From NCBI RefSeq assembly GCF_018408855.1, contig NZ_AP024325.1, positions 310,001 through 374,000 of the forward strand: a stretch of 64,000 bases of DNA. Direction: 5' to 3'. The position numbers and the translations under genes are program-made. This DNA comes from Caballeronia sp. NK8. GTDB lineage: Bacteria > Pseudomonadota > Gammaproteobacteria > Burkholderiales > Burkholderiaceae. Of the stretch, positions 2,746-27,322 are shown piece after piece (position 1 is the stretch's first letter; each line of letters begins with the position of its first letter). The notes under the pieces were generated by a model that was not told the DNA's origin, ran no database searches, and saw only the letters and a list, made by a program, of their open reading frames with translations.

Positions 2746-2813
2746 GCGGGGCGATCCGCGCCTCGAGCATGTCGGGGACTTTGGGCGGCGCTATAGACGC
2801 TTCGCAGGGCTTC

Positions 2814-3367: not shown

Positions 3368-3380
3368 CTAGTATCGTTCA

Positions 3381-3544: not shown

Positions 3545-3577
3545 CTGCCTTCCAGCCCTGAACAGGACGACTCTATC

Positions 3578-4831: not shown

Positions 4832-4950
4832 AGAAGACCGCTTAGCTAGTCACCCGGTCCATTACCCATCGTAAAATGTGCGCAAGCAGGCTTTCGAAGT
4901 CATTTCAAACCTGCGAAAGTGACGATTCAACCGCAATCTAAGGATCCGCC

Positions 4951-5319: not shown

Positions 5320-5454
5320 TCATGACCACCACGGTCACGCATAAGCGTCAAATTCGAAGGTTTCATGTAACTGCGCGGGAAAAAGGGCATCTCATTTTCA
5401 CGGCTGATCGATTTTGGCGTATTCTCCTCACACAAAAACGACAGACCGACAATC

Positions 5455-8400
5455 GTGAGCCATTCCGGGAACTTCAGTTTTCTTGCCGAGCACTCGCCAC
5501 TTCTCGCGCAGCTTGGCACGGCCGCCGAGAACGTTTTCGCCGCCGATCCCAACACGACACTGATCAAGCTCCGCCAGTTCGGGGAAGCGATGGCGCAGGA
5601 CCTCGCCGCGCGCTTGGGCGTCGAGTTCCAAGAGATGAGTCAGGCCGACCTGCTCTACCGGCTGGAGCGAGAGGCCGGGCTCGACCGAACTATCCGTGGT
5701 CTTTTCCACACGCTGCGCGTTGAAGGAAACAAGGCCACTCACGAGTTCACGACGAAGCACAAGGAGGCCATGGACGGCCTCAAGGTCGCTCGCGCGCTCG
5801 CCATCTGGTTTCACGAATCGTTCGGCAAGCAAGGCACGGCATTCAATCCCGGGCCGTTTGTTCCACCCTCGGACCCCAGCGCACACCTTAGGGATCTTCA
5901 GAACGAGATCGATCAGCTCAAGGCGCAACTGAAAGCCGCCTCGCAAACGCTCGAAGACAATCAGCAGCTCACCGACCTCGTCGAGCAGGAGAAGCACGAG
6001 TACGAGACGCTCGCCTTGCAGATGGACGCGGAGGCGAAGACGTACAAGGAGCTTGCATACGAACAAGAGGCAGCTCTTAAGAAAGCCCAACAAGAATTCG
6101 ATGCCAAGATAAAGCAGTTCCAAGCGCAGCTTGACGCCAAGCAAGCCAAGGAGGCGCAGGCAAGCACGAAGAAGGCGACGAAGAAGCTCGTGCTGAGTGA
6201 AGAGTTGACGCGCATTCTCATCGATCAACAATTAGTCGATGCTGGCTGGGTCGCGGACACACAACAATTGTCATATAGCAAGGGCGCACGGCCCGAGGCA
6301 GGAAAGAATAAAGCCATCGCCGAATGGCCCACACTGGGACAGCAGTCTGCCGACTACATACTTTTTGCGGGTCTGATGCCGATCGCGGTGGTGGAGGCGA
6401 AAGCCATCAACAAAAACGTCGCCGGGAAGATCGGACAGGCAGAGCGATACTCTCGCGGCTTTCAAATTACACTGGATCACTCACCGGCCTGGAAAGTAGC
6501 CGGCCAACACGGACCATGGCCGGACGGGCAAGGTGGATTTTTCCAAGTCCCATTCGCCTATTCGTGCAATGGCCGACCCTATATTGAGCAATTGCGCGAA
6601 CAGAGTGGCACGTGGTTCCGCGACCTGCGGGCGTCATCGAATCTGGCCGATGCGCTGGTCGGTTTTCATCAACCGGATGGTCTGATCGATCGTTTGAAGC
6701 GTAGTAAGGAAGACGCCGAAGCCAAACTCGCGCAGGAAGGCTTCGATTATCTTAGACTGCGCGATTATCAAATCAGGGCGATTCAGGAAGTCGAATCGGC
6801 CCTGACGGAAGGGCAGCGCGCCATTCTCGTTGCGATGGCAACCGGCACGGGCAAAACGCGAACCATTATTGGCCTCATGTACCGGCTGCTGAAAGCGGAG
6901 CGCTTCCGACGCATCCTTTTCCTCGTAGACCGCACCGCGCTGGGCCAGCAAGCGACCGACGCATTCGACGAGGCGCTGCTTGAGCAGAACCAGCCGCTGT
7001 CCAGTATCTACAATGTCGCGGAGTTGGGCGACATGTCCGCTGAGGCTGAAACGCGCATCCAAGTCGCGACGGTGCAAGCTATGGTCCGGCGCATTTTGCA
7101 GTCTGAATCGCCTCCGGGCATCGACGAGTTCGACTGCATAATTGTCGATGAAGCACATCGCGGCTATACACTGGACCAAGAGATGACCGAGGGCGAGTTG
7201 GTCGTGCGCGATCAGTCGCAATACCTGTCGAGCTACCGCAGGGTTCTAGACTACTTCGACGCAGTGAAGGTCGGACTCACCGCAACGCCGGCTAAGCATA
7301 CGACGGAGATATTCGGCAAACCCGTCTACACCTACTCCTATCGCGAGGCCGTCGCCGATGACTGGTTGATTGATCACGAACCGCCGATCAGGTACGAGAC
7401 GCTGCTATCGAAGAACGGAATCAAGTTTGACAAAGGTGAGAAGGTCACAGCCATCAATATGGCAACTGGGGAGTTACAACTCTCTGAGCTCGACGATGAG
7501 CTGAATTTCAATATTGAGTCGTTCAACCGTCGCGTCATCAGCGAGCAGTTCAACAAAGTCATCTGCACAGAGTTGGCGAAGGAACTGGACCCGTTTGGCG
7601 AAGAGAAGGCTCTTATCTTCTGCGCCACCGACCTGCACGCGGACATGGTTAAGCGTCTGCTGGATGAGGCCTTCAAGGAACTATATGACGATGACTATAA
7701 CGAAGCTGCGGTCCGCAAGATCACCGGTCAATCAGACAAGGTGAGTCAGCTAATTCGCCTGTACAAGAACGAGCGATTCCCCAGCATTGCAATCACCGTG
7801 GACCTACTTACAACGGGCATTGATGTACCTTCGATTTCTCATCTTGTCTTCCTGCGCCGCGTGCGGTCGCGGATACTTTATGAGCAGATGATCGGACGTG
7901 CCACGCGCCGATGCGATGAAATTGGTAAGACCGTCTTCAAAATCTACGATCCAGTGGACATCTACGCGGCGCTTGAGAACGTCACGACGATGAAGCCGCT
8001 CGTCAAGGATCCGAACGTAACTATCGAGCAGCTCATTGATGAACTTACCGACCCGGCGAGCTTCGATGCACCGGGCAGCACGCCCGAAAGAACGCACGCT
8101 CATGAAGCCCTCGACGCCCTGAACCAGAGCCTTATGCGCGTGTTACGAAAGGCCGCGCATCAGGCGGAAAGAAAGCCGGCGTTGAAGGAACGGCTCGCCC
8201 AGCTTGAACAAACATGGGGCGTCCCTCCGAGCGAACTTCACGAACACCTTCACAAGCTCGGCCCAGCCAGCGCGGCCGATTTCCTGCGTCAGCACAAACA
8301 TCTAGTTGACCAGCTCGCTGAGGTAAAGCAACTTGCGGGAACGGACCAAATGCCGATCATCTCGGATCACGCGGACGAATTGGTGCGCCGCGAGCAGAGC

Positions 8401-8919
8401 TACGGCGAGTTCGGCAGGCCAGGCGATTATCTCGACAGCTTCACCGGCTTCATTCGCGAGCAGGTGAACGAGTCAGTGGCGTTGTCAGTCATCGTTAATC
8501 GACCGAAGGACCTGACGCGCGCGGATCTGCGCGCCGTTCGCCTGCTGCTCGACGCAAACGGCTATACGGAAGCGAAGATCAAAAGCGCGTGGCGCAACCA
8601 GACCAATCAGGAGATAGCCGCCAGCATCGTTGGCTACATCCGGAAGGCTGCGTTGGGTGAGGCTCTCATCCCCTTCGACCAGCGCGTTTCGCTTGCGATG
8701 GAAGGTATTTACAAGATGACCAACTGGACGCAATTGCAGCGCAATTGGCTTCAACGACTGGGGAAGCAACTCGTACACGAGGTAGTCATCGATGAGCAGT
8801 TCGTCAACAGCACGTTTGCCAACGACGGTGGCGCGAAGCTGTTGAACAAGAGACTAGGCGGCAAGCTCGACGACGTGCTGGAAGGGCTCGCCGAGGCTCT
8901 TTGGCCGCAAGTGGCATAA
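5455..8919 (+). CDS. hsdR: type I restriction endonuclease subunit R
   Basis: This 1154-residue motor/nuclease subunit starts at GTG 5455. Domains in order: DUF4145-like N-terminus (residues ~10-120), a charged coiled-coil (~130-235), the HsdR_N nuclease domain with the PD-(D/E)xK element ending in VVEAKA (~312), and a superfamily 2 helicase with Walker A ATGTGKT (~462-468), DEAH (~565) and GLTATP (~606). The C-terminal ~250 residues resemble the EcoEI R C-terminal domain that docks on the methylase. It translocates DNA using ATP and cuts unmodified DNA at a distance. Length and all motifs look intact. No strong ribosome site precedes the GTG. Confidence 0.93.
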   Translation: MSHSGNFSFLAEHSPLLAQLGTAAENVFAADPNTTLIKLRQFGEAMAQDLAARLGVEFQEMSQADLLYRLEREAGLDRTIRGLFHTLRVEGNKATHEFTTKHKEAMDGLKVARALAIWFHESFGKQGTAFNPGPFVPPSDPSAHLRDLQNEIDQLKAQLKAASQTLEDNQQLTDLVEQEKHEYETLALQMDAEAKTYKELAYEQEAALKKAQQEFDAKIKQFQAQLDAKQAKEAQASTKKATKKLVLSEELTRILIDQQLVDAGWVADTQQLSYSKGARPEAGKNKAIAEWPTLGQQSADYILFAGLMPIAVVEAKAINKNVAGKIGQAERYSRGFQITLDHSPAWKVAGQHGPWPDGQGGFFQVPFAYSCNGRPYIEQLREQSGTWFRDLRASSNLADALVGFHQPDGLIDRLKRSKEDAEAKLAQEGFDYLRLRDYQIRAIQEVESALTEGQRAILVAMATGTGKTRTIIGLMYRLLKAERFRRILFLVDRTALGQQATDAFDEALLEQNQPLSSIYNVAELGDMSAEAETRIQVATVQAMVRRILQSESPPGIDEFDCIIVDEAHRGYTLDQEMTEGELVVRDQSQYLSSYRRVLDYFDAVKVGLTATPAKHTTEIFGKPVYTYSYREAVADDWLIDHEPPIRYETLLSKNGIKFDKGEKVTAINMATGELQLSELDDELNFNIESFNRRVISEQFNKVICTELAKELDPFGEEKALIFCATDLHADMVKRLLDEAFKELYDDDYNEAAVRKITGQSDKVSQLIRLYKNERFPSIAITVDLLTTGIDVPSISHLVFLRRVRSRILYEQMIGRATRRCDEIGKTVFKIYDPVDIYAALENVTTMKPLVKDPNVTIEQLIDELTDPASFDAPGSTPERTHAHEALDALNQSLMRVLRKAAHQAERKPALKERLAQLEQTWGVPPSELHEHLHKLGPASAADFLRQHKHLVDQLAEVKQLAGTDQMPIISDHADELVRREQSYGEFGRPGDYLDSFTGFIREQVNESVALSVIVNRPKDLTRADLRAVRLLLDANGYTEAKIKSAWRNQTNQEIAASIVGYIRKAALGEALIPFDQRVSLAMEGIYKMTNWTQLQRNWLQRLGKQLVHEVVIDEQFVNSTFANDGGAKLLNKRLGGKLDDVLEGLAEALWPQVA

Positions 8920-9001
8920 TTTCGAGCCGAACACCAACGGGGATCGCTACGCCGTGTGAGCCGAGCCGCAATCCCACGCCACCTTTCAGAAATAGGGTCC
9001 T

Positions 9002-10459
9002 ATGACCAACAACGAGATCGTCCAGAAGCTTTGGAACCTGTGTGATGTGCTTCGCGACGATGGCATCACGTATACCAACTACGTAACCGAGCTGGTCCTG
9101 CTGCTGTTCATCAAGATGGAACATGAGAACACCCAGAACGGCCTGCTCGACAAACACAAGCTACCTGAAGGGGCACGCTGGCCTGATTTGACCGGCAAGA
9201 GCGGCTTGACCCTTCTGAATCATTACCGCGCGATGCTGCTGTCGCTCAGCCAAAGCACCGACAAGTTGATCGCGGCAATATATGCCGATGCGCAGACGAG
9301 CCTGAAGGAACCCCGCCACCTTGAGCAATTGGTCAAAAGCCTCGACGCAATCGATTGGTTCTCGGCGAAGCGAGACGGACTCGGCGATCTGTATGAGGGC
9401 CTGTTGCAGAAGAATGCAAACGAGACCAAGTCGGGCGCAGGCCAGTACTTCACTCCGCGCCCGCTCATTGACAGCATCATTCACATCATGAAGCCGCAAG
9501 CGGGTGAGACGATTCAAGACCCAGCGGCAGGCACCGCAGGCTTCTTGATTGCGGCGGACGCCTACATCAAGGCACAGACGGACGACCTATACGACCTGAA
9601 CGAAAAACAGCGGACGTTCCAACGCAACAAGGCGTTTCTTGGCATGGAGCTGGTGTCGAGCACGCGGCGGCTTGCGTTGATGAACTGCATGCTGCATGGC
9701 ATGGAGGGAGATGATGAGGGTGTCGTCCACATCGGAAATACGCTCGGAAATGCGGGGGCGGCCCTTCCCAAGTCGGACATCATTCTCAGCAATCCGCCGT
9801 TCGGTACGGCGAGAGGAGGTGGTGGCCCGACGCGTGATGATCTCACCTTTGAAACGAGCAACAAGCAGCTCGCGTTCTTGCAGCATATCGTGCGACATCT
9901 CAAGGATGGCGGACGCGCGGCAGTGGTCTTGCCCGACAACGTGCTGTTCGAACCGGGTGTCGGTGCTGACGTTCGGCGCGATCTAATGAATAAGTGCAAC
10001 CTGCACACCGTTCTGCGTTTGCCGACCGGAATCTTCTACGCGCAAGGTGTGAAAACCAACGTGCTCTTCTTCCATAAGGTAAGCCAGTCTGCGACGGGCG
10101 CTACGAAGCAGGTGTGGGTTTATGACCTTCGCGCAAATGCTCCAAGCTTCGGCAAGCGAACACCGCTTCAACGAGGGTATTTTGCCAAGTTTGAGGCTGC
10201 ATACGGTGAAGCAGCAGACGGCAGCAGCTTGCGCACGGACGAAGGCGAAAGCGGGCGATTTCGCTCCTTCTCCCGCGAATGGATCAAAGCCCGCGAAGAC
10301 AGCTTGGACATCGCTTGGCTCAGGGACGAAAGTTCGGAAGCTAATCAGGACTTGCCGGAACCGATCGTGTTGGCTGGAGAAGCGATGAATGAACTCAAGA
10401 GTGCAGTGGCTGACCTTCAAGATATCCTGCGTCAGCTCGGCATGCAGGAGGTCCAATGA
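9002..10459 (+). CDS. hsdM: type I restriction-modification methyltransferase subunit M
   Basis: The 485-residue N6-adenine methyltransferase has an N-terminal helical HsdM_N domain (NEIVQKLWNLCDVLRDDG), SAM motif I DPAAGTAGF (~173-181) and catalytic motif IV NPPF (~263). With HsdS it methylates the recognition site and with HsdR forms the restriction complex. It begins 82 bp after hsdR. Its stop overlaps the hsdS start (ATGA), indicating coupled translation of the two subunits that form the methylase. Confidence 0.95.
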   Translation: MTNNEIVQKLWNLCDVLRDDGITYTNYVTELVLLLFIKMEHENTQNGLLDKHKLPEGARWPDLTGKSGLTLLNHYRAMLLSLSQSTDKLIAAIYADAQTSLKEPRHLEQLVKSLDAIDWFSAKRDGLGDLYEGLLQKNANETKSGAGQYFTPRPLIDSIIHIMKPQAGETIQDPAAGTAGFLIAADAYIKAQTDDLYDLNEKQRTFQRNKAFLGMELVSSTRRLALMNCMLHGMEGDDEGVVHIGNTLGNAGAALPKSDIILSNPPFGTARGGGGPTRDDLTFETSNKQLAFLQHIVRHLKDGGRAAVVLPDNVLFEPGVGADVRRDLMNKCNLHTVLRLPTGIFYAQGVKTNVLFFHKVSQSATGATKQVWVYDLRANAPSFGKRTPLQRGYFAKFEAAYGEAADGSSLRTDEGESGRFRSFSREWIKAREDSLDIAWLRDESSEANQDLPEPIVLAGEAMNELKSAVADLQDILRQLGMQEVQ

Positions 10460-11904
10460 ACGAATTACCCAATGGATGGGAAGAGTGTTCACTGGATGAA
10501 ATCGTAAGCGACGTTAGCTACGGCTACACCGCCAAGTCGAGTGCCGATAGTGGCGATGCACGAATGCTGCGAATCACCGATATTCAGAATGACAAGGTGG
10601 ATTGGGGACGCGTTCCCTTCTGCGAGATTTCAGATACGGTAAAAGAAAAGTATCTGCTGCGCGAAATGGATTTGGTGTTCGCGAGGACCGGCGCGACGGT
10701 TGGCAAAAGCTTCCTCCTTCGGGAGCATGTGCCGAATGCGGTATTCGCTTCGTATCTGATTCGTGTGCGATGCGTAGATCAGGATATGGCTGGCTATTTA
10801 AAGCGTTTCTTTGACTCACCAGCTTACTGGAATCAAATTACCGAATTCAGCGCTGGCATCGCGCAGCCGAACGTGAATGGCTCTAAGCTTAAGGCGTTAA
10901 AGGTGCCACTGGCGCCATTGGGCGAACAGAAGCGCATCGCTGACAAGCTGGACACCACGCTTGCGCGCGTCGATGCGTGCCGAGAACGGCTCGACAGCGT
11001 GCCGGCGATTCTGAGACGATTCGAAAAGTCCGTCGTCGCCGCCGCCACGTCGGGACGTTTGACAGAGGATTGGCGAGCAGACGGCGCCGCTCGCGGGCAT
11101 GATGCATCAAACGAACTGAAGCTCTGGCACTCGCAAAGGGCCAAGACGGAAAAGAAGCTCCTCACTCCTCCAGATACTACCTACTGGGATCAAGAGATTC
11201 CGACCGGCTGGACCGTTGCGAGCGTTCACGAATTTGCGGAATGCCTTGATCGATTGCGCGTTCCGATCAAGCGAGAGGATCGCAAAAACACGCAGGGACT
11301 CTATCCCTACTACGGCGCCAACGGAGAAGTGAGCCGGATCGACGAGTATATTTTCGACGATGAACTCGTTCTCGTCACTGAAGACGAAACGTTTTATGGT
11401 CGTGAGAAGCCAATTGCATACCGATCCAGCGGAAAGTGCTGGGTAAACAATCACGCCCACGTCCTGCGTGCGTCAAGCCCTGCAGCGAACGACTATCTCT
11501 GCTACGCGCTGATGTACTACGATGTTATCCCGTGGCTGAGTGGAACCACTGGCCGAGCGAAACTCACGCAGCAAGCGCTGAACCGTCTCCCAATAGCAGT
11601 TCCACCCGAAGTGGAGCTGGTTGAAATTGTCCGCCGCGTCTCTATCCTGATCGCTTTTGCCGATCGCCTACAAGCCCGTGTCGCGAAAGCCAAAGCTGCC
11701 GTGGATTGTTTGACGCCGGCACTTCTCGCAAAAGCCTTCCGTGGCGAACTAGTTCCGCAGGATCCCGATGATGAGCCAGTCACAGAACTGTTGAAGCGGT
11801 TGACGAAGCAACGGTCGGGCGAAAGTAAGGCGGCCAAAGGCAAACGCGCAAAGCGCGCCGCTGCCATCGCACTCGGCGAACAAGAACCGGCGTCCGTTGC
11901 GTAG
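10456..11904 (+). CDS. hsdS: type I restriction-modification specificity subunit S
   Basis: The 482-residue subunit has the two-half layout of HsdS. Target recognition domain 1 is about 1-150, ending in PLAPLGEQKRIADKLD, which opens the central conserved helix. Target recognition domain 2 is about 245-400. The C-terminal conserved helix ends LLAKAFRGELVPQDP. The two recognition domains are unrelated in sequence, so the site should be bipartite and asymmetric; the actual sequence cannot be predicted. It is translationally coupled to hsdM and is the last clear gene of the hsd operon. Confidence 0.95.
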   Translation: MNELPNGWEECSLDEIVSDVSYGYTAKSSADSGDARMLRITDIQNDKVDWGRVPFCEISDTVKEKYLLREMDLVFARTGATVGKSFLLREHVPNAVFASYLIRVRCVDQDMAGYLKRFFDSPAYWNQITEFSAGIAQPNVNGSKLKALKVPLAPLGEQKRIADKLDTTLARVDACRERLDSVPAILRRFEKSVVAAATSGRLTEDWRADGAARGHDASNELKLWHSQRAKTEKKLLTPPDTTYWDQEIPTGWTVASVHEFAECLDRLRVPIKREDRKNTQGLYPYYGANGEVSRIDEYIFDDELVLVTEDETFYGREKPIAYRSSGKCWVNNHAHVLRASSPAANDYLCYALMYYDVIPWLSGTTGRAKLTQQALNRLPIAVPPEVELVEIVRRVSILIAFADRLQARVAKAKAAVDCLTPALLAKAFRGELVPQDPDDEPVTELLKRLTKQRSGESKAAKGKRAKRAAAIALGEQEPASVA

Positions 11905-11927
11905 CATTTTGCGCGGCGCGCCCCGAC

Positions 11928-12044
11928 GTGGAGGAACGCGCTGCGAGATCCGCTCTTCTGCACGCCGCACTGGCAGCAGTGTTCGGCGCGGTGCCACCGC
12001 GTGACCACATTGAGACAGTGCGCGCAGCTCTCGAAACCTGGTGA
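11928..12044 (+). CDS. possible 38-residue small protein after hsdS
   Basis: A GTG-initiated frame gives VEERAARSALLHAALAAVFG followed by a short amphipathic helix and ends at TGA 12042. The frame is open upstream through the hsdS stop in another phase, so it could also be a vestige of a longer reading frame. A GGAGG lies right after the start, not before it, so initiation is doubtful. No family recognised. Confidence 0.25.
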   Translation: MEERAARSALLHAALAAVFGAVPPRDHIETVRAALETW

Positions 12045-12066
12045 ACTACACAGGAAGAAGAACGAA

Positions 12067-12090
12067 GCCCCGACATGTCCGGGGTTTTTT
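12067..12090 (+). terminator. rho-independent terminator after hsdRMS
   Basis: CCCCG pairs with CGGGG around a short loop at 12068-12084, followed directly by six T. It lies 160 bp after hsdS and ends where the convergent AlpA-like gene stops, so it separates the two transcription units. Confidence 0.7.
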
Positions 12091-12302
12091 CATCCTGCGG
12101 GCTTCTGCAAGCGCTTGCGTTTGAGTTCCTTGGCCTCTTCTGCCTTGAGCAGGATATAGGCTCGCAGGTCATTCGTCAGGAAGTAGGAGTTATTTCTGCC
12201 CAAAGTGAACGCTGCAGGAAAGTCCGGGTCGTTCGCTTCGAGCCACTGAATCGTCATGACCGATTTTCCAAGGAGCTTCGCCGCTCCCTTACGGTCAACC
12301 AT
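12090..12302 (-). CDS. AlpA/excisionase-like DNA-binding protein
   Basis: The protein is 70 residues. MVDRKGAAKLLGKSVMTIQW is a MerR-like/AlpA winged-helix recognition segment in which the gene name-giving helix-turn-helix reads KGAAKLLGKSVMTIQ. A basic tail (EAKELKRKRLQKPAG) follows. Proteins of this size in integrase-carrying islands act as excisionases or as regulators of integrase expression. An upstream TTG in frame (12350) would add 16 residues with no family-like sequence, so ATG 12302 is preferred. It converges on the hsd operon. Confidence 0.65.
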   Translation of the reverse strand: MVDRKGAAKLLGKSVMTIQWLEANDPDFPAAFTLGRNNSYFLTNDLRAYILLKAEEAKELKRKRLQKPAG

Positions 12303-12393
12303 GTCGATGTCCGTATCGGTCAACCCTGACGTGGTTGACCTGATAGACAACTACACGCCGCCGCAACCTGAACCCAAGTCGCAGGATGCCTAA
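12301..12393 (+). CDS. possible 30-residue leader-like ORF
   Basis: A short frame starts ATG at 12301 (in-frame ATG also at 12307), ends TAA at 12391 and is followed two bases later by the start of the lipoprotein-like gene. Sequence is acidic and Pro-rich at the end (YTPPQPEPKSQDA). Tight spacing suggests translational coupling to the next gene. It lies antisense to the upstream edge of the AlpA-like gene, so it may be fortuitous. Confidence 0.25.
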   Translation: MSMSVSVNPDVVDLIDNYTPPQPEPKSQDA

Positions 12394-12395
12394 CG

Positions 12396-12740
12396 ATGCG
12401 AACCGATCAGAAAGTCATGTGGCGCTTCGTGCTGGTCGCGCTGGTCGGGGCGGTCGGCGTATGCGCGGTCGCCCTCGTGCTGACCTCGTGCGGCTCAGTC
12501 AATCCTCCCGGCACGATGGCCGGCCACAATACGACGCTCCCTGCGCAGCCTGCCTGCCTGCTCTTTTGCTTCGCTGAGGTCCGCTCAAGCATCGACACGC
12601 CGACCCCGGCCAGCAGCGTGCGAGACAGCAAGGGCAAGCAGGCCACGCCGCCTGTCGTGGTCCCGCCGCCTGTCATTAACTCTGCACCTGTCACGCCTGC
12701 TCAGAAGGGCACGCCCTCAGGCTCGAACAGCAGGCCATAG
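12396..12740 (+). CDS. small putative lipoprotein, Pro/Ser-rich
   Basis: The 114-residue protein has a hydrophobic N-terminal segment (residues ~9-30) ending in a lipobox-like LTSC, then a low-complexity tail rich in Pro, Ser, Thr and Lys. Two extra Cys pairs occur near residues 54-58. It resembles small entry-exclusion or lysis-type lipoproteins of plasmids and phages in general layout only. No family is recognised. It may be co-transcribed with the 49-residue gene that follows. Confidence 0.45.
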   Translation: MRTDQKVMWRFVLVALVGAVGVCAVALVLTSCGSVNPPGTMAGHNTTLPAQPACLLFCFAEVRSSIDTPTPASSVRDSKGKQATPPVVVPPPVINSAPVTPAQKGTPSGSNSRP

Positions 12741-12822
12741 CGGGCCATAGGAGGCTTGGCAGGTCAGAGCCGCTGCAACGGTATCCCCAACCGCAGTAAC
12801 AGCCCTATCGGAGCTTTAAGCG

Positions 12823-12972
12823 ATGAAGGTCAAGATCGAGAACCTAGGCGACGTGGGTATACGTGTCATTAGCGACCACGATAACATCAACGACACGGTA
12901 TTGGAGGCAGGCGCGACAGACGTGTTCGAGTCACACGACGAGGGTGTTATCGAGCTTCGGGAGTTTGATTGA
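12823..12972 (+). CDS. small acidic hypothetical protein, 49 residues
   Basis: The frame MKVKIENLGDVGIRVISDHD and onwards encodes a compact acidic beta-rich protein with a balanced hydrophobic pattern, ending IELREFD. A GGAG lies about 10 bases upstream of the ATG. It is too short for standard gene callers but has the coding texture of the small accessory genes in this block. Function unknown. Confidence 0.5.
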   Translation: MKVKIENLGDVGIRVISDHDNINDTVLEAGATDVFESHDEGVIELREFD

Positions 12973-13028
12973 CGGTGCGGAAGCAGAGCCGCGAGAACAG
13001 GCCTGAGCAGGCCTATAGGAGGAAGGCA

Positions 13029-13049
13029 AGGCCCGCGCAATGCGGGCCT
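13029..13049 (-). terminator. hairpin ending the leftward small-gene operon
   Basis: AGGCCCGC pairs perfectly with GCGGGCCT around a 5-base loop. It lies between two convergent units, 8 bp past the stop of the last leftward gene and 57 bp past the last rightward one. The T tract is poor on either strand, so it may work as a weak bidirectional terminator. Confidence 0.5.
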
Positions 13050-13056
13050 GTGCGGA

Positions 13057-13365
13057 TCATGCCGTGCGACCTCCCGAAACAAGTTTGAGGGTGTTGGTCG
13101 TCACGACCGCGCCCTCGGGCAGGTAGTCGAGACCTGTGCTGAAGTAACGAAGCTCATGGCCGTGCATGAAGTAGGCATAAGCCTGCTCCATCGTGCCCCG
13201 ACCCCTGCCGCGTGTCACGATGAACTCGTGACCGATGCCGTCGAGCATGCCGATCACAGTCCGCACGCCCCGGATCGAAGGCCATGAGGGTGTCTTGCGG
13301 GCATACAGTTCACAGGCCTGTCCATTGCATACCACATAGCCTCGCGGGTACGGATGCTTAGCCAT
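13057..13365 (-). CDS. conserved hypothetical island protein
   Basis: The 102-residue protein starts at ATG 13365, which overlaps the stop of the upstream gene by eight bases (ATGGCTAA), so translation is coupled. It mixes short beta segments with basic loops (RGRGRGTMEQAYAYFMHGHE) and a C-terminal VVTTNTLKLVSGG strand. No family is recognised. It is the last gene of a leftward operon of seven small genes; an upstream in-frame start at 13425 would overlap the previous gene by 68 bases and is less likely. Confidence 0.6.
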   Translation of the reverse strand: MAKHPYPRGYVVCNGQACELYARKTPSWPSIRGVRTVIGMLDGIGHEFIVTRGRGRGTMEQAYAYFMHGHELRYFSTGLDYLPEGAVVTTNTLKLVSGGRTA

Positions 13366-13648
13366 TGTGCTGCCTGCCTTGATGGTCAACCCATGCGGCC
13401 TCAGCCGCTTTCCACGCCGCGTCATCGTTCATGACATAGCTGAGGTCCATATAGCCGTCGATCGAATAGCCGATCAACTGCGCGAACTGCTGCCGGTCCT
13501 CGGCTGAAAACTTCAGCATCGCCAGCTTGTTCATGTCGACGCCGCCGTTATCAAGCAGGTACTCGACAAGGCGGTTGCGCTTGAATCGCACGGTGCCGTC
13601 ACGGTCCCTCACGAGCGGCTGCATCGGATGCTTCGGTTGCGTCGTCAT
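13358..13648 (-). CDS. conserved mobile-element hypothetical protein
   Basis: The 96-residue protein contains RFKRNRLVEYLLDNGGVDMN and a following EDRQQFAQLIGYSIDGYMDLS stretch. I recognise this pattern as a widespread short protein of plasmids, phages and islands in Proteobacteria, function unknown. It is predicted all-helical and probably DNA- or protein-binding. It is coupled downstream to the 102-residue gene. Confidence 0.7.
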   Translation of the reverse strand: MTTQPKHPMQPLVRDRDGTVRFKRNRLVEYLLDNGGVDMNKLAMLKFSAEDRQQFAQLIGYSIDGYMDLSYVMNDDAAWKAAEAAWVDHQGRQHNG

Positions 13649-13650
13649 AG

Positions 13651-13869
13651 TTATCTCCCTGCTTTGAGCCTCAGTGTTTCGAGCACGTCAGCGAATGCGG
13701 AATAGAAAGCGAAGCTGGTCGCGTCGCTCGTGTCATGCAGCACGAAGCGGCTGCCGTAAAGCGCTCGCACGGTGTACACCGCCCCGGTCGGCAGCTTCAC
13801 TGAAACCTCAATGCCTTTCGCATCCCGAACCAATCCGAGCGTGAGTGTTTCGATTGTTTGATAGGTCAT
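13651..13869 (-). CDS. small hypothetical protein
   Basis: This 72-residue protein is predicted to be a small beta domain (LGLVRDAKGIEVSVKLPTGA, then VYTVRALYGSRFVLHDTS) with a C-terminal helix. The start ATG at 13869 overlaps the preceding stop (ATGA), typical of a tightly packed operon. No family is recognised. Confidence 0.6.
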   Translation of the reverse strand: MTYQTIETLTLGLVRDAKGIEVSVKLPTGAVYTVRALYGSRFVLHDTSDATSFAFYSAFADVLETLRLKAGR

Positions 13870-14126
13870 TCGGTCCTCGTGATTTTGAAAAAGCGGAAGT
13901 TATCGCCTGAGCCGTCATGACGAAGGCCGAAGTGCAAGACAAGCTCGAAGGCCGCGCCGGGTGCGTGCTTCGCTGCGATCGCGATAGCCTTGTTGCAGGC
14001 ATTGCGCTTGTCGCCGTTCGTCTCAGGCTCAAGCATTGAGTCGCCGACTTCGAGCCGGGTCAAGCGCCATGCAAGCGATCCCGCCTGCAAGGTGCCGAGT
14101 AGTTCCCTCACAGTGCTGCTGCTCAT
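13866..14126 (-). CDS. small hypothetical protein
   Basis: An 86-residue protein starting MSSSTVRELLGTLQAGSLAW. GAGAGG lies 10 bases before ATG 14126. An ATG at 14144, formed as TAATG with the upstream stop, would add six residues and is a real alternative. The C-terminal half is beta-rich (GAAFELVLHFGLRHDGSGDN). No family is recognised. Middle gene of the leftward operon. Confidence 0.55.
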   Translation of the reverse strand: MSSSTVRELLGTLQAGSLAWRLTRLEVGDSMLEPETNGDKRNACNKAIAIAAKHAPGAAFELVLHFGLRHDGSGDNFRFFKITRTE

Positions 14127-14143
14127 GGCGAACTGACCTCTCA

Positions 14144-14494
14144 TTACATTAAGACCCAAAAAATGTGCTGGCGTACATGGTCGAGTGTCATCTTGGGGCT
14201 GGCGTCATTGCCGCTGCGCGTGCTGCCGACCCACAATCCCTTGCCCGCAAGCTGCTGATACGGGAACAGGTCACAGAAGAAAAACGCCTGCTCGTGTCGG
14301 TCTAAGCCGAGGTCGTCCACGTAGATGGCATCGTCCTGTGACTGCTCAGGCCTGACGGCATCGATACAGTCACAGTCGAGCAGCTTGTATAGCTCTTTCA
14401 GTGACTCAGGGCCGCGACCGCCTGAGGGCCGCACGACTTCAGTTATCGTTCCCGCGAACGGGTCAATCAGATATGCCTTGATAGGTTCAGCCAT
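14144..14494 (-). CDS. DUF3846-like protein
   Basis: The 116-residue protein reads IKAYLIDPFAGTITEV, then YKLLDCDCIDAV, DDAIYVDDLGL and QAFFFCDLFPYQQLAGKGL. This is the layout of the DUF3846 family found on phages and mobile elements, which is of unknown function. It lies within the leftward operon with the downstream start overlapping or adjacent to its stop. Confidence 0.65.
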   Translation of the reverse strand: MAEPIKAYLIDPFAGTITEVVRPSGGRGPESLKELYKLLDCDCIDAVRPEQSQDDAIYVDDLGLDRHEQAFFFCDLFPYQQLAGKGLWVGSTRSGNDASPKMTLDHVRQHIFWVLM

Positions 14495-14506
14495 TTGAAG
14501 CTCCTG

Positions 14507-14719
14507 TTATCCCTTCCATCCGAGTGACTCGGTGACATGGCCAGGGAGATACCCGACCTGTTCGCCTTCGCCGAGATAGACCATGAAGCCTTCGTCGGTC
14601 AGTACCTCGATCACGTTGCCGATCCTGCATTCCATCGGCCAACTCGGTTGATGTGCAAAGCGCACTTGAGCGCTCGGCGGTACACCTTCCAAAATCTCAA
14701 TCAATTCTGCTGCGGTCAT
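14507..14719 (-). CDS. small hypothetical protein
   Basis: This 70-residue acidic protein starts MTAAELIEILEGVPPSAQVR, a helix followed by an antiparallel beta pattern (IGNVIEVLTDEGFMVYLGEG). An AGGA-like ribosome site precedes the ATG. The N-terminal 'xLIxxLxxxPPxAxV' pattern is common in short regulatory or DUF proteins of mobile elements, but no specific family was identified. Confidence 0.6.
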   Translation of the reverse strand: MTAAELIEILEGVPPSAQVRFAHQPSWPMECRIGNVIEVLTDEGFMVYLGEGEQVGYLPGHVTESLGWKG

Positions 14720-14755
14720 GTCCTGCTCCGGTGATCTGTTTGTCGTTGTGATGGC

Positions 14756-15043
14756 TTAGCGGCGGCGCTTGCTTCTGCCGCCACTCGTCAGGAGTGTGGC
14801 GACGACCATGAAAGGAAACATCAGAATCGCGAAGAGGATGCCGAGGCCGACTTGTGACTTGACCTCGCTCGGCGTGACCTTGCTGGTATAGCGAAGGCCT
14901 GTGCCGGGAATGCTCGTGCTAACGCGCCCCTTGCTGTTATAGGTGACACCCTTGCCGCCGAATGAATAGCTCGTGCCGCTCTTGCTCAGATTGACACGGA
15001 CGCCGGGGAGCAGCTTGAATGACTTCCTGAAAGACCAACCCAT
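14756..15043 (-). CDS. DUF4236 domain protein, membrane-anchored
   Basis: The 95-residue protein begins MGWSFRKSFKLLPGVRVNLS and continues with SGTSYSFGGKGVTYNSKGR and PGTGLRYTSK, which is the DUF4236 signature. A transmembrane helix follows (LGILFAILMFPFMVVATLL) and a basic C-terminus (GGRSKRRR). ATG 15043 is chosen over GTG 15052 because AGGTGA lies five bases before it. It is the first gene of the leftward operon, downstream of a 19-bp palindrome. DUF4236 function is unknown. Confidence 0.8.
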   Translation of the reverse strand: MGWSFRKSFKLLPGVRVNLSKSGTSYSFGGKGVTYNSKGRVSTSIPGTGLRYTSKVTPSEVKSQVGLGILFAILMFPFMVVATLLTSGGRSKRRR

Positions 15044-15121
15044 TTTGTTCACCTGCTGTAGGCATCTGCTGCCTCACTGTTTGTTCCTGCTGAAACATTC
15101 AGGGCAGGACTCCATACTATC

Positions 15122-15140
15122 TACCCCACCAAGTGGGGTA
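15122..15140. promoter_or_regulatory. 19-bp palindrome upstream of the leftward operon (candidate operator)
   Basis: TACCCCAC-CAA-GTGGGGTA is a perfect inverted repeat with 8-bp arms, 79 bp upstream of the DUF4236 start. It is not followed by T residues on the minus strand and sits where a promoter is expected, so an operator is more likely than a terminator. The AlpA-like protein is one possible ligand; that is inference. Confidence 0.5.
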
Positions 15141-15253
15141 AACGGCGCAAAGTTGGCGAACCGCTCTAAGTGGCTGAGGCCTTATGCAGCAAGGCTGATA
15201 GGGCGAGCCGAATGATTCAGAAGGGGCTTACGAGGGGGATACGACAGGGGGGA

Positions 15254-15355
15254 TTAGTCAGGCGGGACGAACGCCGCCATATAGAGAACAGCCACAAACA
15301 CGAGCAGCGGCATCAGCACAGCAATCAGCCATGCCATCAGCCGCGCTCGCTTCAT
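15254..15355 (-). CDS. possible 33-residue single-pass membrane peptide
   Basis: The frame reads MKRARLMAWLIAVLMPLLVF, continues as a hydrophobic helix, and ends AAFVPPD with TAA at 15254. A positively charged N-terminus followed by about 22 apolar residues is typical of small membrane proteins. The ribosome site is weak. It lies upstream of the leftward operon in the same orientation. Confidence 0.4.
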   Translation of the reverse strand: MKRARLMAWLIAVLMPLLVFVAVLYMAAFVPPD

Positions 15356-15424
15356 GATCGAGGATCATCCTATGTCTCGACCGGCGCCGTGGGCTTCGGT
15401 CCCTCGGTTCTCATGCTCAAGTGA

Positions 15425-15795
15425 TCGACGCATGCTGTTTCGGACCGCAGACCTCCTGCCGCAGGACCGCTGACGAAAAGCGAGCGTCGTCGCGATGCGC
15501 TGCATCAGGCCGACTGTGGCCATGATCGGCCCATCGTCAGGCTGGCCGTCTGGGATAAACATGTCGAACTGTGTTCGAGAGCTTGAATGCGTTGTCGTAG
15601 TCCTATGAAGTCGTCCGACACCGCTGCGACGGCCTCGACGATATCGGGAAGCAAGCCGCTCATCAGATTACCTTGGCGCGTCAGCAGATCAATGCGCTCG
15701 CCGCCCTTCCGAACGAGACAGCGATTCGGGTCGGACTTGTAGATGCACCTTTGCGGTGTTGTCTTTCGGGCTGATCGCGGCGCGCGACATCAACC
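15425..15795 (-). pseudogene. decayed leftward coding region in three phases
   Basis: A natural-looking start, MSRAAISPKDNTAKVH, lies at about 15790. The plausible continuation is in another phase (IYKSDPNRCLVRKGGERIDL, then MSGLLPDIVEAVAAVSDDFI at 15662) and after another shift becomes MFIPDGQPDDGPIMATVGLM at 15562. The phase changes suggest at least two frameshifts in a former gene of about 120 residues. Alternatively these are two overlapping short genes. No family is recognised. Around it, 15356-16160 shows no other supportable gene. Confidence 0.4.
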
Positions 15796-16160
15796 GCCCA
15801 CCTGCTGGAATCGGCCATCAACGGCATTTCGATATCTGCGCTAGGCCGTTCGAACAACCGCTGCTCGAACAGCCGTTAGGCAGACCGCGTAATCATCGGG
15901 CGCCAGCGCTGTGCCGGCTTTCTTCCCACCTTCTCGACGGTGCGTGGAAGGCCGGAGTGACCGCGGTAGCAAAAGTCGTCAGCAGTTGGCATCGCGGGAG
16001 CCGCCGTCGTTTTCACCTTACAAGAGGCCAGGGCGTAGTCAATTGTGGCAAGGGCGCAGTAAGAAAAAACTTGCCATTTTGCCATTTAGTTCTAAAACGA
16101 ATTGTGACCCGATCCGGGAAGTCGTTGCCCGAAAAATAACGCTACGCAGGAGCGGCTGCG
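15796..16160. other. intergenic stretch before the radical SAM cassette
   Basis: No convincing gene was found here. AT content rises toward the right. A tandem TTGCCATT TTGCCATT at 16071-16086 could supply a -35 element for the downstream cassette, with TAAAAC-like sequence following. Imperfect repeats around GTTCGAACA and CTCGAACAG occur near 15850-15875. Open frames across it lack start signals and coding texture. Confidence 0.4.
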
Positions 16161-17684
16161 ATGAAATTGAGACAGGCTCAGACCGACCTCCATCGCTCGA
16201 CCAAAATGGATGTGGAAAGATTAGATCATTACGTTCCTATCAACTGGTTGCCGAGGGAGGCGACTCGCGATCGCAGCACTGACAAACGGATGAACACCCA
16301 AGTCCTGCTGGATGCGAGCCCCCCGTTGAGCTTAAAGTTTCCAAACGTCTATTTGAGACGCAGAGGGGCGACACGAATCCTTTACGCCCCATTAAAAGGA
16401 CTCGTCCTTGAGGTAACTGAAGAGGCGGCCAGCCTTATTGAGGCCCTGAAACAAGGACCGGTGGAAGGACGGCAGGGCAACGTGGAGGAATGGACCGCAT
16501 TACTCTCCTCCCTTGACGATGTTGGAATTGCGAAAAGCGATTCCGATCACTCGGCTTTATCCCACCGGGAAAAATTTAGGCCGACACACGTAACGCTTTC
16601 GCTAACGACTGGATGCAATTTGCGTTGCGTATACTGCTACGCTCGAGCGGGCGAGAAATCTCGAACTATGCCTTTTTCGCTAGCGAGGGCGGCTATCGAG
16701 TTCGTAGCTACCAACGCGATCAGACAGAACGCCCCGAGCTTCGGTATAACATTTCACGGTGAAGGCGAGCCAACATACGAATGGCAACTTTTTCGGCAGG
16801 TCGTCGAGTACGCAGAAACTGTCGCTCATCAGTTAGCTCTCGGAGTGACGTTTGCCATGACAACAAACGCGCTTTGGGGCCGCGCTCAGAGGGCTTTCAT
16901 CGTGGACCGCTTTTCCGATCTATCGATTTCACTTGACGGCTTACCGGAAGTGCAAGCAGCTCAACGTCCTACGATATCCGGCAAAGACGCTTTCAAGACA
17001 ATTCTTGCAAACCTTATCGAAGTAGGTGAAAAAGGCGTTCCATGCGGGATCCGTTCGACCATCATGCCAAATAGCGTTGATCGCATGGTCCCGTTTCTAG
17101 AATTCATCGCCGCTAACACGAAAATAACGAATGTGCGTCTTGAACCGATTTTCGACTCGGGAAGAGGCGCAGATCTACCGATTGACAACTCATCTTTCGA
17201 CCTAAGATTCGCAGAAAGATTTACGGAGGCCCAGGCACGCGGTCGTGAATTGGGGTTGTCTGTAAGTTATTCGGGGTGCAGCGACATCAATCACAGCGGT
17301 AATTTTTGCGGGGCGACGGGGTCGAATCTCAACTTCACAGTGATGAGCCATGGAGTGGTTTCTTCATGCTATGAAATTAATGAGCCCACGCATGAATTGG
17401 GCGAGTTTTTTATATATGGGAAATTTGACGAGCAAACTCAAACTTTCGAATTCTTGCCTGATCGGATGGACCGTCTCATGAACTTTTCCACTAAAACCAA
17501 CAGCCCATGCGCAAGCTGTTTTGCACAATGGAACTGTCGAGGTGATTGTTTATCTCGATACTCAAAGAAGAAGCTGTTGGGCGGCGGCGCCTCTCCACGT
17601 TGTTCACTCAACCAAGCGCTGGCAGACGCTCGTCTTGTCAATTCATTGGAATCTCAGTCATTTGGTTCGGGAGATGCATCGTGA
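16161..17684 (+). CDS. radical SAM/SPASM peptide or protein maturase
   Basis: A 507-residue enzyme. Residues ~55-125 resemble the PqqD-like/RRE region that binds leader peptides (PNVYLRRRGATRILYAPLKG). The radical SAM cluster motif is C152-x3-C156-x2-C159, followed by GEGEP (~200-204). The C-terminus has a full SPASM signature: C383, G398-x4-C403, then C450-x2-C453-x5-C459-x3-C463 and C481, predicting two auxiliary Fe-S clusters. Enzymes of this layout modify side chains of ribosomal peptides or proteins (PqqE, AlbA, anaerobic sulfatase maturase). AGGAG eight bases before ATG 16161 supports this start. The stop overlaps the next start (GTGA). Lower GC than the chromosome points to transfer. 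Confidence 0.9.
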   Translation: MKLRQAQTDLHRSTKMDVERLDHYVPINWLPREATRDRSTDKRMNTQVLLDASPPLSLKFPNVYLRRRGATRILYAPLKGLVLEVTEEAASLIEALKQGPVEGRQGNVEEWTALLSSLDDVGIAKSDSDHSALSHREKFRPTHVTLSLTTGCNLRCVYCYARAGEKSRTMPFSLARAAIEFVATNAIRQNAPSFGITFHGEGEPTYEWQLFRQVVEYAETVAHQLALGVTFAMTTNALWGRAQRAFIVDRFSDLSISLDGLPEVQAAQRPTISGKDAFKTILANLIEVGEKGVPCGIRSTIMPNSVDRMVPFLEFIAANTKITNVRLEPIFDSGRGADLPIDNSSFDLRFAERFTEAQARGRELGLSVSYSGCSDINHSGNFCGATGSNLNFTVMSHGVVSSCYEINEPTHELGEFFIYGKFDEQTQTFEFLPDRMDRLMNFSTKTNSPCASCFAQWNCRGDCLSRYSKKKLLGGGASPRCSLNQALADARLVNSLESQSFGSGDAS

Positions 17685-18145
17685 GCGAGAAGAAAAATAT
17701 TTTAGACGCAGCGGCAAAAACTGGAGCTGCGTCCACGATTCCCGGCATCGACAGGCGAACGTTGCTAAAGACTGCTCTTAGCCTGAGTGGGGTGATAGCG
17801 GGCAGTACGGTAGGCTCAGAATCATTTGCGGCGGACTGCAGCTGCAATAAAGAAAGCGGCTGTGCATGTGTCGGCCATGAAAGATGTGTGTGCATCGGGA
17901 ACACAGGGCCAACGCCGACGCCGACTCCAACGCCGAACAGCAAACTGGATGAAGGCACACCTAGCATTGATGGAGTGATCAAACGAATCGGCCCCTCGGA
18001 CAGTGTGATAACGCTAGACAACGGTAAGACATACAAGCTCGATATAGAGGACCTTAAGGGATTGCGCAAAGGGGAGTCGGTCCAACTGAAGCCGTTTGGA
18101 AACCCGTCTGACATGAAGGCCATTCTTTCTAAACCACGCAAATAG
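17681..18145 (+). CDS. Tat-exported protein with three CxC repeats, candidate radical SAM substrate
   Basis: A 154-residue protein begins at GTG 17681 inside the radical SAM stop codon. It has a twin-arginine signal (IDRRTLLKTALSLSG) and likely cleavage near SFAA. Directly after cleavage come three 8-residue units, CSCNKESG, CACVGHER and CVCIGNTG, placing CxC every eight residues. A Thr-Pro repeat linker leads to a C-terminal ~50-residue beta domain (GVIKRIGPSDSVITLDNGKT) that resembles DUF1344. Tat export implies the protein folds or is modified in the cytoplasm first, in keeping with modification by the coupled enzyme. The repeats could instead bind a metal cluster. Function is unknown. Confidence 0.8.
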   Translation: MSEKKNILDAAAKTGAASTIPGIDRRTLLKTALSLSGVIAGSTVGSESFAADCSCNKESGCACVGHERCVCIGNTGPTPTPTPTPNSKLDEGTPSIDGVIKRIGPSDSVITLDNGKTYKLDIEDLKGLRKGESVQLKPFGNPSDMKAILSKPRK

Positions 18146-18167
18146 CTCTACCAGAGGGAAACTCGCA

Positions 18168-18482
18168 ATGGCGGCTCACCTAAGAGGACGTACGGTGAAA
18201 CTTCGTCGTTTCGCGTTGGCATTCTTGAGCACCATGACGGTTGCGCTTTGTGGTTGCTCTGTCGCGGGCTCGTCGGACCATGACGCGGGCGGGCAGGCTG
18301 CTACGCGCGCTGAAGCGAAGGGCGCAAGCTTACAGTCGGCCAATATCTGTATCGACGCCGGCATCCAATATTCTCCCGGCGGCGTGACGAGCAGATGCAT
18401 CTACTGGACCACTCGATGCGCTCAAGCAAAATGCAAGCGATGCCAAAACGACGGAACTTGGTCAGGCGAATACTCGTGCTAA
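18168..18482 (+). CDS. Cys-rich secreted lipoprotein
   Basis: The 104-residue protein has a signal peptide with lipobox VALCGC, so it should be lipid-anchored after export. The mature C-terminal ~45 residues hold six Cys (NIC, SRC, TRC, AKC, KRC, YSC), compatible with three disulfides or a metal site. GAGGG nine bases upstream supports ATG 18168; GTG 18195 is an alternative that leaves the signal peptide intact. It follows the CxC-repeat gene by 22 bp and completes the cassette. No family is recognised. The same frame stays open for 88 codons after the stop. Confidence 0.7.
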   Translation: MAAHLRGRTVKLRRFALAFLSTMTVALCGCSVAGSSDHDAGGQAATRAEAKGASLQSANICIDAGIQYSPGGVTSRCIYWTTRCAQAKCKRCQNDGTWSGEYSC

Positions 18483-18859
18483 GAGGGTCTATCGCGTGCG
18501 GGCGCGCCCACGACGCTTGATGTCTTCGTCTGCCAGCCTTCAGGTCAGTTCACGATCTATGCGCGGACTCACGAGGCCACTGTTAATGGTCGCCGGTTGG
18601 CACATAAAGCCCAGTCCAAGGCTTTAGCAAAGTGCGTGACTCGCACAAGTTGCGAGCCATGTCGTTCATCACCGAACGCTCCTAGGGCTATCCTTGTTCC
18701 TGTGTCCCAAGGCCTTGCAGGACGGGCGTGTATCGTTTTCGTCCCCTGACCAAAATCCCTTCCATCAGTGGCGAGGTGCGACTGTTGGCTGGAATGTTGG
18801 ATGGAAAGCCGAATTTTCCTTGAAAACCCCTATTTATAAAGGTTTCAGGCTCGTAACCG
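18483..18859. other. right end of the island: in-frame open extension and end repeats, no complete gene
   Basis: From the TAA at 18480 the same phase is open to TGA near 18747 and has coding texture (VFVCQPSGQFTIYARTHEAT), but it has no ATG or GTG with a ribosome site. It may be a truncated continuation of the Cys-rich lipoprotein. A GTTGGATG-type block at 18783-18810 resembles 3516-3544 at the left end. The remainder up to attR shows no gene. Confidence 0.45.
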
Positions 18860-18876
18860 TCTTTGCAGCAGCAAAG
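18860..18876. other. attR, 17-bp direct repeat at the right island boundary
   Basis: This is the second copy of TCTTTGCAGCAGCAAAG, in the same orientation as 3351-3367. The bases to its left have no counterpart in the intact repeat copy, while those to its right continue that copy exactly. Confidence 0.8.
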
Positions 18877-18945
18877 AAAGTGACTGCCGCCCCGCACAGG
18901 GGCAACGCAAATAGACCGACACGATCACGGGATCCGGCGAAAAGC
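18877..18945 (-). repeat. right copy of the dispersed repeat, distal part
   Basis: This 69-bp block matches the reverse complement of 2814-2882 base for base in length, with about eight substitutions. Together with 3224-3367 it rebuilds a full copy of the repeat, which shows that the island split it. No gene is present from here to 19010. Confidence 0.85.
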
Positions 18946-19010
18946 CAGAAACGTGTAATGCGCTTTCGCCAGGAAACTTTCCATTCCTTAGAAAAGGTAC
19001 AAAACTCGCT

Positions 19011-19307: not shown

Positions 19308-19418
19308 GATCCTTCTCCTGGAAACGCGGTGCGGCGTGGACACGCATCGGTTGAGAAAGATTGTCGACGTCCTGAATGAGCGAAGAATGAGGGACGTGCA
19401 GTCGCACGCGCGATTACG

Positions 19419-25822: not shown

Positions 25823-25832
25823 GGGATTCGCC

Positions 25833-27290: not shown

Positions 27291-27322
27291 CATCGACGCT
27301 TCCCAGTTCACAGGACCATTCA

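Follow-up and report, generated by a model that had tools for sequence, protein, structure and literature searches.

A radical SAM/SPASM maturase and its probable substrate, a Tat-type CxC-repeat protein, in Caballeronia sp. NK8

Why does a gene for a radical S-adenosylmethionine (SAM) enzyme of the SPASM type overlap the gene of a cysteine-repeat protein with a putative twin-arginine translocation (Tat) signal, and what would the enzyme do to that protein? We addressed this question for a 64,000-nucleotide stretch of Caballeronia sp. NK8 (contig NZ_AP024325.1, positions 310,001 to 374,000), hereafter called the window. A preliminary description, made from the letters of the window, had regarded the 8-residue CxC repeats as the target of modification and a downstream lipoprotein as a partner at the membrane. 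In the reading that we favour, with a probability of roughly 60%, the enzyme and the CxC protein form a two-gene cassette for maturation and Tat export of the latter, in which the enzyme probably modifies the cysteine-repeat protein before it leaves, folded, through Tat. Similar enzyme/cysteine-repeat pairs were found in many distant bacteria and in some archaea. The features of the pair are listed below.

16161..17684, plus strand: radical SAM/SPASM maturase gene (507 aa from the ATG at 16161)
16332..16529, plus strand: predicted recognition element (RRE) domain of the kind found with ribosomally synthesized and post-translationally modified peptides (RiPPs), residues about 15-80 of the 464-aa form, AlphaFold model
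16614..16637, plus strand: radical SAM cluster motif CNLRCVYC (C109, C113 and C116 invariant in 26 aligned rows, window included)
17307..17603, plus strand: SPASM cysteines C340 to C438 (alignment)
17681..18145, plus strand: Tat-type CxC-repeat protein gene, proposed substrate (GTG start, overlapping the enzyme stop)
17681..17830, plus strand: putative Tat signal of the CxC protein (23-residue n-region, DRRTLLK, h-region, possible SFA/AD cleavage site)
17837..17893, plus strand: CxC core CSCNKESGCACVGHERCVC (three CxC, 8-residue period)
17909..17935, plus strand: Thr-Pro linker (PTPTPTPTP, from the sequence)
17966..18142, plus strand: DUF1344-like small beta domain, weakly OB-like (oligonucleotide/oligosaccharide-binding) in a moderate-confidence model

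For evaluation of the pairing, species genomes were scanned with the enzyme alignment, and 80 of 231 confirmed loci, chosen by the enzyme alone, were retained; 53 of them were strong (tblastn E<=1e-31) and 27 held weaker homologues. We recorded open reading frames (ORFs) with at least two CxC within 50 residues, lying no more than 2 kb away on the enzyme's strand, and took blocks of 4 kb from other parts of these loci as controls. Such a CxC-cluster gene was present at 34 of the 53 strong loci compared with 6 of 63 control blocks (Fisher p = 4e-10), and a gene with at least three CxC at 25/53 compared with 3/63 (Fisher p = 1e-7). The weaker homologues gave 2/27 against 3/35 in their controls. 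With 34/53 strong but only 2/27 weaker loci positive, the CxC link therefore belongs to this enzyme family and not to SPASM enzymes generally. The 34 positives consist of 30 cases read by hand plus L009, L034, L055 and L067, where on reading the CxC proteins look like genuine partners. When the loci were thinned to 50% identity, 24 of 43 had a CxC partner (21/43 by the hand list, plus L009, L034 and L055). By record titles the positives span more than ten phyla, including Chloroflexota, Bacteroidota, KSB1, Armatimonadota, Acidobacteriota, Planctomycetota, Actinomycetota, Thermodesulfobacteriota, Bipolaricaulota, Nitrospirota, two groups of the candidate phyla radiation (CPR) and archaea, besides the window and the Methylobacterium-like locus L099. 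The check proposed in the preliminary description, co-occurrence of enzyme homologues with CxC-repeat proteins, thus turned out in its favour, many of the partners being Tat-type; its assignment of the CxC repeats as the modification target gained strong comparative support, although the chemistry is inferred only.

A search of the protein database with the enzyme gave 65 matches, the best of which, besides its own copy, were 42-48% identical and included Neorhizobium, Methylobacterium, Methylocystis and Roseiarcus. In a tree of 86 enzymes, from which those shorter than 380 or longer than 660 aa were left out, the window enzyme fell, with full support (100/100), into one clade with P0004 from Neorhizobium galegae (47% identity), P0012 from Roseiarcus, P0005, P0006, L099 and L001. 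Neighbourhoods were read for two of these six, L099 and L001. L099 (6.5-Mb genome; enzyme 44% identical to the window's) encodes an 88-residue Tat-type protein, divergently transcribed 357 bp from the enzyme, whose gene is flanked by transposase-like genes by reading. The protein has the signal RRRLLIWAGKLAGT...AYA/Q and the core CTCVGNTCNSNAPVRCSCIGNC, whose motif order agrees with that of the window segment CACVGHERCVCIGN, the common core being CxCVG[NH]..RCxCIGN. In L001, an alphaproteobacterial metagenome-assembled genome, a Tat-type protein gene with the signal RRRDLLKKALALAGVIGVST overlaps the enzyme stop as in the window.

These data bear on the simplest objection, that the two genes are chance neighbours; the enzyme would then have a different substrate, for example the lipoprotein, to which the unrelated CxC gene merely lies close. 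The window CxC protein and the lipoprotein are both orphans by sequence and one clade member (L001) is without CxC, as this explanation would allow, but it fits poorly with the association at 34/53 strong loci against 6/63 control blocks and with the CxC[VI]G unit common to the window and its close relative L099, and we consider it very improbable.

The enzyme is rare and scattered. Among 61 relative genomes it occurred at full strength only in that of the window (9.2 Mb), 26 others giving weak partial matches of at most 62 bits. In overlapping order, family and genus samples taken with the Neorhizobium galegae homologue in view, matches at E<=1e-30 were obtained in 1/397 genomes (order sample; the centre genome itself) and 2/397 (family sample, centre included), both alphaproteobacterial; further samples gave 0/99, 0/57 and one partial match (108 bits) in 148. 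We also tried HG[GE]GEP in place of GGEP as a diagnostic of the family and set it aside, as 34 of the 46 enzymes from strong loci in the tree have it, which makes it common but not universal. Among plasmids, an unannotated ORF with nine CxC lies directly after a more distant radical SAM gene in Methylocystis iwaonis (L103:6173-6559). Plasmids of Edwardsiella tarda (L101:4202-9602) and Salmonella (L102:4012-9410) carry a related radical SAM gene with a hypothetical gene for 57-59 residues, Gly-rich in Edwardsiella, together with ATP-binding cassette (ABC) transporter and S8 protease genes; no CxC was seen in these two loci.

What the partners have in common was analyzed in a set of 34 proteins with 155 CxC motifs, to which the Chlorohelix plasmid locus L100 contributed two proteins and the L001 protein, without CxC, also belongs. 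The set does not include the partners of L009, L032, L034, L037, L055 and L067, and for L002, L018, L021 and L038 it omits second copies. The residue after CxC was V, D, N, E or Q in 143 of the 155 motifs (92%; mean per protein 0.88), compared with 28% of 142 motifs in other genes of the same loci. The second residue was G, S or A in about half, the third mostly V, Y, D, H or N, and CxC[VI]G[HNYQ] occurred in 11 proteins. Units were spaced by 6 residues 37 times and by 8 residues 30 times, so that the window's 8 is one of two family periods; the Coriobacteriia partner of L019 reads CSCVGHSTCSCVGHSTCSCVSH. Twin arginine (RR) plus a hydrophobic segment was found in 18/34 partners, and in 13 of these 18 the element P-x-[VIL]-[YF]-x-[VLI] stands before RR. 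It lies exactly 16 residues ahead in all but one of the 13 (12/13); if the Tat n-region doubles as the maturase leader, a single N-terminal segment would link modification with export in the folded state. A C-terminal [HG]YW[YH]Px was present in 14/34 partners across phyla, and WD40 models matched 10/34, in which the CxC tail is fused to WD40 repeats. The CxC tails are described by none of the 11 matched NCBIfam families, nor by any of the 25 Pfam families listed out of 83. The window protein has the RR signal and the CxC unit but neither the 16-residue element nor the C-terminal hexapeptide, and we therefore place it in a separate branch.

Partner genes varied in arrangement. Tat-type proteins, many with WD40, whose CxC tails end in HYW[YH]P[NT] were seen at L012:2195-3601, L023:2990-4336, L025:3213-4571, L027:9325-10677, L028:1061-2443, L100:2402-4925 and others. 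In L012, L016, L023, L025, L027, L028 and L100, the enzyme and Tat-CxC genes have a further radical SAM gene close by, and several of these loci have a small PqqD-like gene too (all by reading); this suggests a possible two-enzyme maturation in those branches. In L003:7253-7945 and L004:1462-1944, a Tat-type signal plus a PqqD-like domain is, by reading, encoded just before the enzyme and a separate CxC protein after it, so that signal and recognition domain are on another protein than the CxC tail. The archaeal partners (L018:9328-10611, L021:6957-7601, L006:9359-9574) are short peptides, in several tandem copies in L018 and two in L021; they have a common [YFL]RL-like N-terminal element and look like classical leader-core precursors.

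The window CxC protein gene starts with GTG within the enzyme stop (overlap TCGTGAGC, GTGA), with GGGAG 7 nt before it. In the database, the protein is represented by a shortened call of 85 aa (P0002), which lacks the signal and the CxC core save the last Cys. The three CxC units are at residues 53, 61 and 69 (17837, 17861 and 17885), spaced by exactly 8; when the mature part (104 residues, six Cys) was shuffled 200,000 times, 0.11% of the trials gave at least three CxC and none reproduced the 8-8 spacing. The segment after the possible cleavage site reads CSCNKESGCACVGHERCVCIGN and is followed by the Thr-Pro linker and the DUF1344-like domain, which matched its Pfam model at 21.6 bits (E = 1.8e-4), just below the cut-off of 23.1. 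Thus, the GTGA overlap, the three evenly spaced CxC, the linker and the DUF1344-like domain given in the preliminary description were all recovered from the sequence. Predicted alone, the protein had a mean pLDDT (predicted local distance difference test) of 56.8, with mostly 74-83 in the C-terminal beta domain; Foldseek with this model returned OB-like and cold-shock-like chains from E 0.015 and none at E<=0.001, to which we attach no functional weight. On the Tat signal claimed earlier the sequence gives a mixed picture: DRRTLLK, an h-region (best 12-residue mean hydropathy 1.53) and SFA/AD are present, but the motif deviates from the Tat consensus S/T-RRxFLK and no curated Tat model matches. 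We call the signal Tat-type because of this motif, the h-region and the similar signals in L099 and L001, and export of the CxC protein by Tat is a likely outcome.

As the preliminary description had it, the enzyme proved to be a complete SPASM protein with a possible leader-recognition N-terminus. AGGAG upstream of ATG 16161 is a good Shine-Dalgarno sequence, while the database copy (464 aa) uses the alternative start ATG 16290, near which the N-termini of most of the 26 aligned rows lie. The radical SAM fold is supported by the CX3CX2C motif, by fold comparison of the model and by a PF04055 match (47.4 bits, cut-off 29.5). The seven-Cys SPASM signature is complete (C340-x14-G-x4-C360, C407-x2-C410-x5-C416-x3-C420 and C438, 464-aa numbering), and all seven Cys are invariant in the 26 rows, window included. 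In the AlphaFold model of the whole enzyme, the N-terminus forms three strands (E21-25, E28-33, E38-42) and two helices (H44-54, H65-76), a predicted RRE-like domain; the structural alignment with the SCIFF peptide maturase CteB (5wgg, 20% identity) comprises model residues 18-456 and thus covers this region. Together, sequence and model support an RRE-bearing radical SAM/SPASM peptide maturase.

From the computed anatomy, fold prediction, co-occurrence and motif conservation, we infer recognition, chemistry, order of steps and cell location as follows. The RRE domain, in keeping with its CteB-like fold, would hold the N-terminal part of the newly made CxC protein, and the enzyme would modify the CxC region with SAM radicals in the reducing cytoplasm. 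The likeliest reaction would be thioether cross-linking of Cys, with the residue right after each CxC as a candidate acceptor. Export of the modified protein would then be by Tat, a pathway that accepts cargo in folded or cross-linked form, and would bring the DUF1344-like domain, still joined to the modified module, to the outside of the membrane. We regard it as very likely that the enzyme acts on the window CxC protein, and as likely that it does so in the CxC region. A thioether has, by analogy, slightly less than an even chance; it is ranked first because CteB, PapB and QhpD are the nearest characterised enzymes. The residues V, D, N, E and Q that follow CxC have an abstractable beta or gamma hydrogen, and their role as acceptors is a prediction.

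The enzyme might also act on the CxC protein without making thioethers, for instance by forming C-C cyclophane bonds or epimerising at V/I-G-H/N/Y; the Cys would be left free to bind a metal or an Fe-S cluster, with which the folded protein would pass through Tat. His, Asn or Tyr three residues past the second Cys, with V-G before, would suit this explanation. In the excerpts consulted, other radical SAM RiPP enzymes form C-C bonds or epimerise (PMC8326336) and copper is chelated by bufferins, which are Cys-rich and exported (PMC12452194). However, thioether formers give the best matches by structure and by profile, and the most restricted position holds V/D/N/E/Q and no aromatic residue, which leaves the non-thioether route unlikely.

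Several observations weigh against a maturation and export cassette. No CxC-cluster gene was present at 19 of the 53 strong loci, and the criterion for such genes was set after CxC ORFs had been seen in the locus listing. Within the window's clade, the neighbourhoods read are those of two of the six relatives, L099 and L001, and the L001 partner has a single Cys and no CxC, which is either evidence against strict pairing or the mark of a degenerate partner. Searches of the protein database and of plasmids gave no homologue of the window CxC protein, apart from its own truncated copy in the former; it is linked to the family because of neighbourhood and motif, not overall sequence similarity. 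No NCBIfam or Pfam Tat model matches it. Its CxC units are followed by N, V and I, without the D/E acceptors of the PapB and QhpD type. Finally, CxC is also a ligand pattern for metals and Fe-S; in the part of PMC6231123 available, CXC is a common [2Fe-2S] ligand pattern and serves as a cluster ligand inside an enzyme.

The cassette sits on a mobile island, near its far end. The features of the surroundings are as follows.

2759..19010, no strand: genomic island carrying the cassette (16.25 kb, absent from the congeneric genome G004)
3578-4831: tyrosine-type integrase ORF on the island (named by reading)
5455-11904: type I restriction-modification ORFs on the island (named by reading)
18168..18482, plus strand: orphan Cys-rich lipoprotein gene (or from 18195; not supported as a part of the system)

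In G004, window 1450-2758 and 19011-21400 lie side by side at C72:290725-292033 and 292043-294442, with 94-95% identity and 9 bp apart (292033 and 292043). Because the flanks adjoin each other there, window 2759-19010 is an insertion. A repeat of roughly 560 bp with many copies in the genus, on both strands, lies at one island edge (2807-3373) and a shorter related repeat near the other (18853-18881). Outside the island are a large minus-strand gene, by eye like acetoacetyl-CoA synthetase fused to a carrier domain and a thioesterase (20606-23710), and a heavy-metal efflux set of the resistance-nodulation-division type with a two-component regulator (24461-32619), similar genes of which occur in Burkholderia plasmids; Burkholderia is the commonest name among the plasmid matches of this stretch.

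An antimicrobial or signalling peptide system, in which the CxC protein would be cleaved as a precursor to release a small modified peptide, would suit the mobile setting and the related Edwardsiella and Salmonella plasmid enzymes with their 57-59-residue peptide, ABC transporter and S8 protease genes. By reading, however, no protease, dedicated transporter or immunity gene adjoins the window pair; a folded domain follows the CxC core, and the CxC tail is fused to WD40 in 10/34 partners. Such a peptide system is quite unlikely. In a RiPP in the strict sense, a leader is removed from a modified core; the only cleavage predicted for the window CxC protein is the signal-peptide cut.

The lipoprotein gene starts 22 bp downstream of the CxC gene (49 bp from the alternative start) and, as described earlier, encodes six Cys besides that of the lipobox, which reads LCGC and is imperfect. 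Its proposed role as a membrane partner found no backing: the protein database contained only the lipoprotein itself and plasmids none, the 61 relative genomes gave, besides itself, 3 weak matches that look like chance on reading, one with internal stops, and no comparable lipoprotein adjoins the enzyme in L099 or L001 (ORFs of at least 60 aa, by reading). We set it aside as a part of the system for want of support, not as disproved. Some Chloroflexota CxC partners seem to carry a lipobox of their own after RR (e.g. SALAGC), and their sequences hint that they may be tethered to the membrane by another route.

Most of what is known about radical SAM peptide maturases concerns small secreted peptides, along with a few cofactors. 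In the present case, a single maturase family recurs with CxC modules, many of them fused to exported, often large, folded Tat-type proteins. Its hosts range from a Burkholderia-type bacterium to Chloroflexota, and in some archaea it occurs with short CxC peptides. We tentatively propose, at somewhat under even odds, a cross-domain class of radical SAM maturation in which CxC[V/D/N/E/Q][G/S/A][H/Y/N/V] modules are modified on exported folded proteins and the Tat n-region doubles as the leader; WD40 propellers, DUF1344-like and other domains would be its exported carriers. Among the open-licence PMC papers listed by our searches we found no description of Tat-exported or WD40-fused CxC substrates of radical SAM enzymes, and the text of PMC4289311, as far as available, has neither CXC nor Tat. 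The enzyme superfamily and the general logic are already known, and the substrate class and export route appear to be what lacks a description. The combination, which the preliminary description had considered undescribed, is accordingly not unique to the window, where we see one branch of a family that is widespread. Should the CxC units indeed be modified, extracytoplasmic proteins could by this general route be given stable chemistry derived from Cys. The concrete questions are then which bond is formed, at what residue it lies, and whether a signal of the Tat type can act as leader for a maturase.

Among known systems, bufferins and other exported Cys-rich RiPPs modified by multinuclear non-heme iron-dependent oxidative (MNIO) enzymes resemble the window protein in that their precursors are rich in Cys and have an export signal instead of a plain leader. 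They use an MNIO enzyme, a DUF2063 partner and Sec signals, unlike the radical SAM enzyme and Tat-type signal here; the main text of PMC12452194, as consulted, calls export signals on RiPP precursors highly unusual, names Sec ones and does not mention Tat or twin-arginine. The maturase adjacent to the CxC gene is a PF04055 radical SAM protein and not of the MNIO class, MNIO genes elsewhere not having been searched separately. CteB (PDB 5wgg, 5why) is alike in modelled fold, RRE region included, but differs by its 20% identity, by the SCIFF maturase profile (TIGR03974, 78.3 bits against a curated cut-off of 425) and by its substrate, a 45-residue peptide instead of a signal-bearing multidomain protein. 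The PapB ranthipeptide maturase (NF047865) gave the best NCBIfam score of the window enzyme, 109.2 bits, far under the cut-off of 340, and likewise has repeated Cys units as its target. In ranthipeptide chemistry, the thioether joins the Cys sulfur to a carbon of the acceptor other than the alpha carbon. PapB forms Cys-Xn-Asp thioethers with n of 0-6, also with Glu, in the excerpt of PMC9413430, where PapA has CX3D/E units compared with CxC[VDNEQ] here. QhpD, from quinohemoprotein amine dehydrogenase maturation, makes three Cys-to-Asp/Glu thioethers in QhpC in the cytoplasm, and the product is periplasmic; a 28-residue leader is removed and exit is by an ABC transporter (PMC7876137, as far as seen). 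The window protein differs in its RR signal, no leader-removal or ABC transporter genes adjoin it by reading, and the enzyme scores 95.5 bits against the QhpD cut-off of 453 (TIGR03906). In gene order, however, the two systems agree, as the maturase gene lies directly before its substrate gene and overlaps it, both in peaB and qhpC of L108 and in the window.

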